IMG/VR virus record: IMGVR_UViG_3300011118_000025
Span: 1 to 28,056 of that record
DNA length: 28,056 nucleotides
Strand: one strand, 5' to 3'
Origin: a virus
The notes below the pieces were generated by a model, which made no database searches, was not told the origin of the DNA, and saw nothing but the letters and a program-made list of their open reading frames with translations. Below, piece by piece: positions 14,587-20,504 of this stretch; the stretch's first letter is position 1; every line of letters starts with the position of its first letter. The translations under genes and the position numbers were made by a program.

Positions 14587-14862
14587 TTACTGGATTTGTG
14601 GCCGTCGCAGGTGGCGAGCTACCTCGCCGAGCTTGATGCCCACGACGGCGCGGTGCCGCCGTTGCGGGTCCACCAGGACGAGTGAGACCCCGGAGCTGGC
14701 GCTGTGCCAGGCGGCGACCACGCGGAGGATCTCCCCCGCCTCGAAGCGCTCCCCGCCCTGGGTGACGGCCACTTCGCAGAGATGCACGTGCTGTCCGATC
14801 AGCTCCCGGAGGCGCCCCACGCCCAGGCGGATCAGCTCCCTCTTGGTCTCGGGCATGATCAT
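14587..14862 (-). CDS. Hypothetical protein coupled to the initiator-like gene, 91 aa
   Basis: Its ATG at 14862 overlaps the stop of the initiator-like gene (ATGA) and has GGAGG seven bases upstream. The protein is mixed alpha/beta: a basic N-terminal helix (TKRELIRLGVGRLRELIGQH), then strands (HLCEVAVTQGGERF, GVSLVLVDPQRRHRAVVG). The second half resembles a small beta-barrel. No motif is recognised. Confidence 0.6.
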   Translation of the reverse strand: MIMPETKRELIRLGVGRLRELIGQHVHLCEVAVTQGGERFEAGEILRVVAAWHSASSGVSLVLVDPQRRHRAVVGIKLGEVARHLRRPQIQ

Positions 14863-15647
14863 CGCCTGACCTCCGCGAGCTTTCTGCGCGCGTTGCTGAG
14901 TTCCGAGACGAACATGCCCAGGGGCTTGCGTGCCGGCGGCCGGCGGTGGCCGATCTGGTGGGCCCGCGTCTGGACGGCTTCGTCTACCCGCTGCGGGGGG
15001 CCCAGCTCTCCGGCCAGCAGCTTGCTCGCCCAGCTCGTCAGGAGTGCCTCATCCCTCTCGACCTGCTCGTCGCTCCGCGTCTGCTCGTCGAGTCCCAGGA
15101 GATGCGCCCAGTCTGCCGCGATTTCCTCTGCCGTGTGGCACGGAGCTTGCTCAGCGCAGCGCTGTTTCTTAGTGTCCTTAGTGTCTGCAGAGTGCTTCAG
15201 AGGTACGAACTCAGTTCGGGGGGGGTACGAACTCAGTTCGGGGGGGGGTACGAACTCAGTTCGGGGGGTCGGGCGTTCCTCGGCAGCCGCCGGCGGAATT
15301 TCTTGGGATAAAAACGCGATGCCGCTCGTGGACGCCGGGCGGTGCCTCTGCTCGATCAGCCCACGAGCCTCCAGCTTCGCCAGGGCCTTCTGCACGCCGC
15401 GGACGGTCAGCGCGGTCATGGCCGCCAGGCGGCGCTGGGATGGGTAGATCCAGAAGACCGCGTCGCTGACCAGGTGATTGAGCAGGGCCGCGTAGACGAG
15501 CTTCTCCGCCCAATGCACGTCCGATCGCTCCAGGAGCCACAGGGGGATGCTACAGTAGTGGCCGCTGCGGAGGATCTCCGGGCGCCGGGCGTGGGCGCCC
15601 GGCGGGTGCTTGGGTGGCTCCGTGTACGGCAGGTTCCGCTGCTTCAC
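14859..15647 (-). CDS. Replication initiator-like HTH protein with internal iterons, 262 aa
   Basis: A GTG start at 15647 with GAGGA six bases upstream. Residues 35-100 form a helix-turn-helix domain (WAEKLVYAALLNHL, then RRLAAMTALTVRGVQKALAKLEARGLIEQ) as in phage O-type and DnaD-like replication proteins. Residues 120-160 are a Pro/Glu-rich linker whose DNA carries three repeats (see 15203-15268). The C-terminal part (about 165-262) is helical and may contact helicase or loader. The arrangement matches lambda O, in which the origin lies inside the initiator gene. The exact family is not certain. Confidence 0.65.
   Translation of the reverse strand: MKQRNLPYTEPPKHPPGAHARRPEILRSGHYCSIPLWLLERSDVHWAEKLVYAALLNHLVSDAVFWIYPSQRRLAAMTALTVRGVQKALAKLEARGLIEQRHRPASTSGIAFLSQEIPPAAAEERPTPRTEFVPPPELSSYPPRTEFVPLKHSADTKDTKKQRCAEQAPCHTAEEIAADWAHLLGLDEQTRSDEQVERDEALLTSWASKLLAGELGPPQRVDEAVQTRAHQIGHRRPPARKPLGMFVSELSNARRKLAEVRR
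15203..15268. repeat. Three iteron-like repeats inside the initiator gene, candidate origin
   Basis: GTACGAACTCAGTTC followed by a G-run occurs three times. The 11-base core GAACTCAGTTC, itself an inverted repeat, is at 15207, 15229 and 15252, steps of 22 and 23 bases. Because 22 and 23 are not multiples of three, the middle copy is read in another frame than the outer two, so selection acted on DNA, not protein. AT-richer patches flank it (15163-15200 and 15297-15317). This is the layout of an initiator-binding origin. Confidence 0.7.
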
Positions 15648-18801: not shown

Positions 18802-19171
18802 AGTTCTCCTCGCCAACTCGTTGGTGTCTCGCTGCCACGGTGGCCTCGGCCGCCACCCTACGCGCCATGTCCGCGTCCAGGTGGCCGATGTGGGCCTGCT
18901 CCTGGTTGCAGCCGAGCACGTAGGCCAGCCAGCGGTAGGCTTCGCTGCGACTCATCGGGGCCCGCCGGCCCTGCCAGAGAGGATCGAACGCCGCGTGGGC
19001 CGCGCGGCGCGCGTCCCGCGTCTCCTGATCTGCCGGCGTGGACGTCGCCCCGCCCCAGCACATGACCGTGCAGCCCTCGACGGGGCAGTCCCACCGCAGG
19101 CCGTACCTCGTGCCCGTGCACGTCATTCGTGCCTGGTGGACGGGGCAGATTGTCTTGCGACGCTTGCTCAT
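18776..19171 (-). CDS. DUF3268-like zinc-finger protein, 131 aa
   Basis: The core matches the DUF3268 zinc-finger-containing family: two Cys-rich turns (CPVH at 9-12, CPVEGC at 29-34), then RDARRAAHAAFDPLWQ, and MSRSEAYRWLAYVLG followed by AHIGHLDADMARRV. The family is small, phage- and plasmid-borne, without proved function. Here the gene is coupled by ATGA to the radical SAM gene upstream, so the two are made together. Confidence 0.75.
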   Translation of the reverse strand: MSKRRKTICPVHQARMTCTGTRYGLRWDCPVEGCTVMCWGGATSTPADQETRDARRAAHAAFDPLWQGRRAPMSRSEAYRWLAYVLGCNQEQAHIGHLDADMARRVAAEATVAARHQRVGEENCDPHGARG

Positions 19172-20022
19172 TCGCCCGCCTTTGCCTTGACCAGCCCGTT
19201 CTCGATCGTGACGCCCTCGGGCGCGAGCAGCTCGCGGATCGAGTCCTTCCACCGAATGAGCCTGTGATCGCGCTTCGGCCATCGGTCCGACTGCGGATGG
19301 ATCTCGAGGTTGAGCCGGCGGACGTACTCCCAGACGCGCCCGGGCTTCTGGTACCACAGGAGCCAGCGGACCATGGGGTGGTGCTCGCCGATCTGCGCCC
19401 AGGCCGTCCGCTCGACGAGCTCCCTGGCCAGTCCGACCCAGATCGGATGCGTCACTTCGACCTTGAGCAGGCCCACCAGCTCGTCGATGGCCGGCGGCTC
19501 GAGCAGGGGCTCCATCGAGACGCTCGTCCAGTACCCGGCGTCGGCGGCCAGGCGGAGGTAGTGGATGCGGTTGGCGATGGTCGGGGCGTTGGGCTCCCAG
19601 AACTGGCGGTATCCGCGATCGTTCAGGCAGGTGATCGTCAGGCGGAAGGCCACGCGCGGCTGGTGCCGGCGGCAGACGGCGTCCAGGTGAGGGAAGACGG
19701 CGGGATCGCCCTTGGTCACGATCAAGACGTAGTTGCCGGCGTCGAGGAGCTTGGCGAGGACCTCGCAGCAGCTCTGCCAGTTGCCGGCGTGGATGTCATG
19801 CGTCGAGGGGAACATGATGATCCCATCGCGCTTCTTCCAGCCCTTCTCGAGCACGTCGCGCCTCAGCTCCTCATCCTGCCACTGCGAGCCCTCGTTGATC
19901 CGGCGGTAGGTCAGTGCCTTGTGCCTGGCGTAGCAGTACAGACACGCGTATCGGCAGCCCTTGTAGAGATTGACGTTGTGCTGGGCCCACTCCCTGGTGC
20001 CGGTGGGTTTGGGGTCAGTCAT
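19168..20022 (-). CDS. Phage radical SAM protein (SplB/Gp37-Gp68-like), 284 aa
   Basis: CRYACLYC at 23-30 is the CX3CX2C cluster that binds a [4Fe-4S] centre and S-adenosylmethionine. The MFPSTHDIHAGNWQSCCEVL and NYVLIVTKGDPAVF stretches fit the barrel of the phage Gp37/Gp68 (DUF5131) branch, a relative of spore photoproduct lyase. These proteins probably do radical chemistry on nucleic acid, but no substrate is established. The gene is coupled by ATGA overlaps to a GNAT-like gene upstream and a zinc protein downstream. Confidence 0.8.
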   Translation of the reverse strand: MTDPKPTGTREWAQHNVNLYKGCRYACLYCYARHKALTYRRINEGSQWQDEELRRDVLEKGWKKRDGIIMFPSTHDIHAGNWQSCCEVLAKLLDAGNYVLIVTKGDPAVFPHLDAVCRRHQPRVAFRLTITCLNDRGYRQFWEPNAPTIANRIHYLRLAADAGYWTSVSMEPLLEPPAIDELVGLLKVEVTHPIWVGLARELVERTAWAQIGEHHPMVRWLLWYQKPGRVWEYVRRLNLEIHPQSDRWPKRDHRLIRWKDSIRELLAPEGVTIENGLVKAKAGE

Positions 20023-20504
20023 GTTCGTGCCTCGACGCGCCGCTCGAACACCAGCAGCGCACGCCGTCCATGCCCCCCTGGGGTCTGCCCGCAGCGGCGC
20101 CAGCCTGCCATCCGAAAGCAGTAGCCGGGATTGGGGCTCCGAACGGCGGCCGGGTCGACGTACGTGTAGAGCCGCTCGCCCGGCCATCGCCGCCAGGCCA
20201 AGCCGCAGGCATCGCGGATCAGGTAGCTCGAACGCCCCGCCCCCTCGTTGCGGAAGACCGCGCAGTTGACGCCGAGCTCGGGGCGCATGGAGCGGAAACG
20301 CCGCCAGACGAACAGAGCCCGCCCGTTGATGGCGAGCAGGACCATCTTCTCGCCGGGCCCGACGAACAGCACGCGCTTGCGGGCGTCGCGGTAGCGACGA
20401 CAGGAGTAGTGCCGCAGGTAGATGGCCAGCGCGGTGCGATTGCCGTCCGGCACAATGATCCACGGCGTCGCGAAGTCCAAGCCCATTTGCCGCCCGTCGG
20501 TCAT
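20019..20504 (-). CDS. Possible GNAT-fold (Mom-like) protein, 161 aa
   Basis: The order LAIYLRHYSCRRYRDARKRV (N-terminal helix with HYS), VNCAVFRNEGAGRSSYLIRD (central strand-helix), RLYTYVDPAAV and NPGYCFRMAGWRRCG resembles GNAT-type folds, including the Mom DNA-modifying enzymes of Mu-like phages. It is a recognisable conserved phage protein with a C-terminal NPGYCF-AGW signature. The assignment is by pattern only; it could be another fold. A role in DNA or protein modification is inferred, helped by the neighbouring radical SAM gene. Confidence 0.55.
   Translation of the reverse strand: MTDGRQMGLDFATPWIIVPDGNRTALAIYLRHYSCRRYRDARKRVLFVGPGEKMVLLAINGRALFVWRRFRSMRPELGVNCAVFRNEGAGRSSYLIRDACGLAWRRWPGERLYTYVDPAAVRSPNPGYCFRMAGWRRCGQTPGGHGRRALLVFERRVEART

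Follow-up and report, generated by a model that had tools for sequence, protein, structure and literature searches.

A palindromic iteron array within a winged-helix initiator gene as a probable replication origin of an uncultured phage

An array of three palindromic repeats, located inside a replication initiator gene of an uncultured high-GC phage, very probably forms the binding part of the replication origin of this phage. The most likely arrangement is an in-gene iteron origin in the style of lambda O, SPP1 gp38 and the RepA_N proteins, and the locus provides a mapped candidate origin for the phage. A likely origin inside the initiator gene had been proposed in an original prediction, which is now supported by the initiator matches of the gene, by its lambda O-like anatomy and by the presence of arrays in homologues. 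The arrangement is already known; beyond it, one word recurs in divergent initiators, and other words occur on the same layout. All coordinates refer to the whole stretch of DNA analysed, which is 28,056 nt long and is called the window hereafter.

The unit GTACGAACTCAGTTCG was found as three exact copies on the plus strand, at positions 15203-15218, 15225-15240 and 15248-15263, each with a G-run, that of the third copy reaching 15268. The steps from copy 1 to 2 to 3 are 22 and 23 bp. No further site was detected in the whole window with up to 3 mismatches allowed, and the chance expectation of GTACGAACTCAGTTCG in shuffled sequences was 0.07 per window. The core, GAACT-C-AGTTC, is an odd palindrome. 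Flanking GTAC and G-runs had been announced and both are present, but GTAC lies on one side of the core only, with the G-run on the opposite side. The iterons occupy codons 131-153 of the stop-to-stop frame, and the cores are read in frames 1, 0 and 1 of the 262-aa ORF, encoding RTEFVP, ELSS and RTEFVP in this order. The outer copies therefore share a frame from which the middle copy (15225-15240) differs, as predicted together with the 22/23 steps, and such steps thus break the reading frame.

The half-sites GAAC and GTTC are identical to those of the Gram-positive LexA box, whose consensus is GAACNNNNGTTC. That the array consists of SOS boxes of this type is hardly credible, since every copy has a spacer of 3 bases where GAACNNNNGTTC has 4, and the sites form arrays in the middle of genes rather than lying in promoters.

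The gene harbouring the array (14859-15647, minus strand) starts with GTG, encodes 262 amino acids and shows a gene-typical GC content by codon position. Its description as replication-initiator-like was borne out by Pfam, with a match to HTH_36 (PF13730) at 28.3 bits for a cut-off of 25, and by PHROG, with matches to group 270 'replication initiation protein' (E=4e-11) and to 'O-like' groups (1.3e-6), the initiator PHROGs matched being 270, 345 and 428. The lambda O family (Phage_rep_O) was not among the Pfam matches, which list HTH_36 and other winged helices, and neither was the RepA_N family. An AlphaFold2 model, built on an 18-row alignment, together with Foldseek comparisons, delineated three parts on the minus strand. 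A winged helix-turn-helix domain (residues 30-115, 15303-15560), with its recognition helix near TVRGVQKAL, was modelled with pLDDT values mostly above 78 and of about 90-97 in the core. A disordered linker (residues 116-172, 15132-15302; pLDDT about 46-68 across most of it) is encoded by the stretch holding the iteron array. The C-terminal helical domain (residues 173-261, 14865-15131) comprises four modelled helices of lower confidence and, by analogy with lambda O and RepA_N, presumably contacts a helicase, a loader or a primase. The closest PDB folds were RepA_N plasmid initiators (4pql, 4pt7 and 5kbj), and the N-terminal domain aligned with 4pql at E=7e-4 and a TM score of 0.52 over 96 columns. 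Searches of viral contigs and phages returned no close homologue of the 262-aa protein; one weak plasmid match, tried as a homologue, had no similar array and was set aside.

A winged-helix protein and palindromic repeats may also denote a transcription regulator and its operators, because MarR-like regulators typically pair winged-helix dimers with palindromic sites. The top PDB sequence matches of the protein profile were indeed MarR regulators, and GAACTWAGTTC triplets occur near regulator genes at actinomycete loci. We nevertheless consider an operator array quite unlikely. The repeats lie far from either end of the gene, some 390 bp into the coding sequence and within the linker, with no promoter context apparent; the PHROG matches are replication initiators; a C-terminal domain is present after the linker; and an AT-rich element recurs beside the arrays. 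Moreover, the cultured relatives of another motif-bearing initiator (L146) either carry the annotation 'replication initiation protein O' or adjoin DnaB helicase and cI/cro.

The AT-rich element favours the origin reading over operators, and the AT-richer flanks expected on both sides of the array were found. On the 3' side in the gene sense, the candidate DNA unwinding element at 15163-15200 is 55% AT, a value reached by 0.2% of windows of equal size in this genome of about 30% AT and 70% GC, and includes a perfect 9-bp tandem duplication, CTTAGTGTC x2, at 15168-15185. With the array itself left out, the AT maximum of the initiator gene over 40 bp immediately follows the repeats on their 3' side (rank 0), the position it also has in lambda. 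A second stretch, at 15297-15317 on the other side of the array, is 67% AT, which places it in the top 0.06% of equal windows. The side of the putative unwinding element is the same as in homologues: in a set of 39 genes, the 40 bp that follow the array on its 3' side came close to the AT maximum of the gene (Wilcoxon p=5e-7; median rank 0.02). At one of the loci (L343), the AT-rich part of the linker that follows the array consists of a 12-mer in tandem, AATAATATAGAT, reminiscent of the repeats of unwinding elements. The window locus combines an HTH_36 winged helix, three in-gene repeats at helical spacing and an adjacent AT-rich element.

The 28-kb fragment encodes a terminase, RecE/RecT, a RusA-like resolvase and an excisionase-like protein, and looks like part of a tailed phage that is probably temperate. 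The early region also encodes a radical SAM-like protein (PHROG 13321; 19168-20463, minus strand), adjacent to the genes for the resolvase and for recombination. Of the genes of the fragment that were tested, none was recognisable as encoding a helicase, helicase loader or primase, and the downstream ORF (14587-14862, 91 aa), which occupies the position of the P loader gene of lambda, gave no family match. GC skew showed no turn at the array, and the window holds no DnaA box (TTWTNCACA) of the kind expected at a DnaA-box-dependent origin; these two results speak neither for nor against the proposed origin.

A search for further pairs of cores spaced like iterons (GAACTNAGTTCN{5,25}GAACTNAGTTC) yielded 31 viral stretches and 118 genome stretches. 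In about half of the viral stretches, the array falls in a linker that directly follows a winged helix. About 15 winged-helix proteins other than that of the window have GAACTSAGTTC at the same place, with steps of about 22 bp, and these initiators are mostly very divergent from one another, most being 17-26% identical to the window protein. When L328, L334 and two loci from bacterial MAGs (Pyramidobacter L200 and Kiritimatiellae L260) are counted in, the set comprises 16 distinct genes, the window included; the winged helix of one member, L147, is doubtful. Arrays of this kind are present in 14 other virus records and 2 bacterial genomes, where the GAACTSAGTTC sites listed were confined to the array or arrays, and sites of a reversed-palindrome control were absent from those virus records. 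Other searches were less informative. A scan for single copies of GTACGAACTNAGTTCG gave 15 viral contigs with one site each, about chance level and in unrelated genes; the yield of a triple GTACGAA scan was largely tandem repeats in coding sequence with no relation to the array; comparing the array with phages by blastn gave nothing useful; and a literature search for the core found no relevant paper.

The copies of GAACTSAGTTC fall in frames 0, 1 and 2 in 37, 5 and 15 cases, respectively, and 11/16 genes mix frames. Since all three frames are used and most genes mix them, the DNA rather than the peptide is conserved. A 63-kb phage (L163/L167) carries two copies in the gene and four in a second, intergenic array, and conservation as DNA therefore extends outside any gene. 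A low-complexity linker grown by slippage, as a peptide-level or neutral tandem duplication devoid of binding, could be suspected from the three near-identical units, the slippage-prone G-runs and the disorder of the linker in the AlphaFold2 model. Such an origin of the repeats is very unlikely, because steps of 22 and 23 disrupt the reading frame and the same palindrome is found in divergent genes in three frames, and because the arrays are helically phased and their inverted repeats are longer than in shuffled sequences (43 arrays, p=2e-8). In addition, the reversed-palindrome pair control gave only 11 stretches, a single one of which (L325) lies in an initiator-like gene, with an array of its own.

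Several matches belonged to other settings. On a Lachnospira multipara contig (L185:1849-2508), 11 GAACTSAGTTC copies lie upstream of ParA/ParB-like genes, and from its sequence this array looks like a centromere or a plasmid origin using the same palindrome. Since the palindrome is also used elsewhere, as it is here, the motif alone is no proof of an origin. A centromere-like or other structural site, for partition or packaging, placed in the gene by chance would agree with the Lachnospira array and with the second array of one phage, which adjoins a terminase-like gene. We regard it as highly improbable for the window, where no parA/parB-like gene was found among the tested genes; across many contigs the recurring partner is a winged-helix initiator gene, and homologues hold arrays of other sequence in the same place. 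The genome matches centred on A/T were set aside as different classes. They include the intergenic, operator-like GAACTWAGTTC triplets of actinomycetes (L184, L190, L194, L215, L216, L226 and similar loci, in Amycolatopsis, Kutzneria and Actinomadura) and, in CPR bacteria (Parcubacteria, Falkowbacteria), a 32-bp palindrome, GGAACTAAGTTCCGAAGCTTCGGAACTTAGTTCC, which lies inside many unrelated coding genes with the in-frame reading ELSSEASELSS (L178, L198, L207, L231, L235, L240, L245, L246, L248, L264) and resembles Rickettsia palindromic elements. Finally, related viral contigs (L140, L141, L151, L329, L330, L331, L335, L336) bear repeats of GGAACTGAGTTCC, separated by AT-rich spacers and located outside long ORFs, which are possible intergenic origins of another virus group, as judged from their sequence.

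An in-gene origin was also considered from the protein side, by expanding two initiator families by protein similarity alone, blind to the motif. The corresponding linker of most homologues again contained a significant array of repeats, written in other letters, including GGTGAAAAACTTTCACC, GTGTAAAAATTACAC, GGTGTCAAAATGACACC, GACTCACAGTC and AGTAGCGCACT, and cultured Pseudomonas phages related to L146 have ACCCCCGCANNNNNTGC units at the same place. GAACTSAGTTC is not universal to HTH_36 proteins, as it was present in 0/30 motif-blind Bacillota genes, several of which had other arrays. No array was found in a few relatives (L366 and L367). Despite the change of letters, the arrays share a grammar. 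Repeat lags in 39 genes peaked at 21-24, 33-34 and 43-46, corresponding to 2, 3 and 4 helical turns, and runs of at least four C or G reached 3.3 per 100 bp in arrays versus 0.4 outside (111 runs in arrays versus 38.5 expected from shuffles, p about 2e-8). As to the expectation that homologues would conserve the repeats while the encoded linker drifts, the array is kept at 22-bp steps in most of them, but its letters are replaced. An array conserved while its letters turn over fits co-evolution of initiator and iterons.

We also looked at whether the protein carries a correlate of the site. On a winged-helix tree (n=49, tested columns removed), the GAACTSAGTTC label required 9 changes (8-10 over bootstraps), at least two of which are on well-supported branches, and only two well-supported independent pairs were available. 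The third residue after the Ser/Thr opening the recognition helix was not Thr/Ser in 16/16 GAACTSAGTTC proteins, compared with 5/33 others (Fisher 6e-9, a value which ignores kinship and comes from the data on which the pattern was noticed). This pattern tentatively agrees with the site being read by the winged helix itself and is a lead only. It is conceivable, if rather doubtful, that GAACTSAGTTC is a public specificity, reached or inherited repeatedly by unrelated initiators on the common grammar of a C/G-run spacer and a palindrome at 22-bp steps, and governed by a handful of residues where the recognition helix begins. If this were true, the iterons of a phage could be predicted from its initiator, and origins could be recognised across unrelated phages.

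By analogy with known initiators, we infer binding, unwinding, helicase loading and origin activity at the locus. The winged helix, probably as a dimer, would bind each GAACTSAGTTC palindrome, and the bound dimers may stack on one face of the DNA, because the three sites are two helical turns apart. The stacked dimers would strain the AT-rich stretch at 15163-15200 and lead to its opening; the C-terminal domain would then bring the replicative helicase, either via its loader or through the primosome of the host. In the protein, the segment that the array encodes would act as a disordered tether, so that the array could be kept as DNA at little cost to the protein. These findings suggest that many temperate-phage origins can be read from sequence alone by a simple rule: the linker of a winged-helix initiator, C/G-runs and a palindrome at 22-bp steps, then AT-rich DNA. 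Relatives with about half-identical winged helices and different iterons constitute a natural series for studying how specificity and replicon compatibility change, and one palindrome common to divergent initiators makes a recognition code testable.

Lambda-type phages keep their ori iterons inside the O initiator gene. When used as a positive control, the annotated iterons of lambda O were recovered by their repeats, in mid-gene and at steps of 20, 24 and 23. As in the window, they lie between the N-terminal DNA-binding part and the C-terminal part, with steps near 22, and oriLambda consists of inverted-repeat units with G-tracts, with an AT-rich unwinding region beside the array (PMC7466680), again as in the window. 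In contrast, the iterons are unrelated (GAACTSAGTTC in the window, TCCCTCAAAACGAGGGA in lambda), the window has separate C-run/G-run spacers, the Pfam family of lambda O was not detected in its protein, and no P-like gene was recognised beside the initiator. In SPP1, gp38 binds direct repeats in its own gene, beside an AT-rich element, oriL being in gene 38 and oriR elsewhere (PMC6316719). The likeness to the window is one of layout, with in-gene repeats and an AT-rich element; the two arrays of SPP1 recall those of the 63-kb phage, whereas one array was seen in the window. RepA_N replicons have their origin inside rep, where it encodes a linker that the protein can do without, and in plasmid pPR9, which replicates autonomously, the pfam13730 (HTH_36) N-terminal domain has been swapped together with the origin region (PMC5703833). 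RepA_N initiators (pSK41, pTZ2162) share with the window protein a winged-helix N-terminus, an origin-encoded linker and a helical C-terminus, but they belong to plasmids, not phages, have different site sequences and belong to the Pfam RepA_N family, which was not among the matches of the window protein. The Pseudomonas phage initiators (for example LESphi3 'replication initiation protein O' and PotUPM1) resemble the window in both layout and grammar, with arrays of ACCCCC plus a palindrome at steps of 17, 22, 34 and 44. Their palindrome is GCANNNNNTGC-like rather than GAACTSAGTTC, and among the motif-bearing initiators they are closest to L146 rather than to the window protein.
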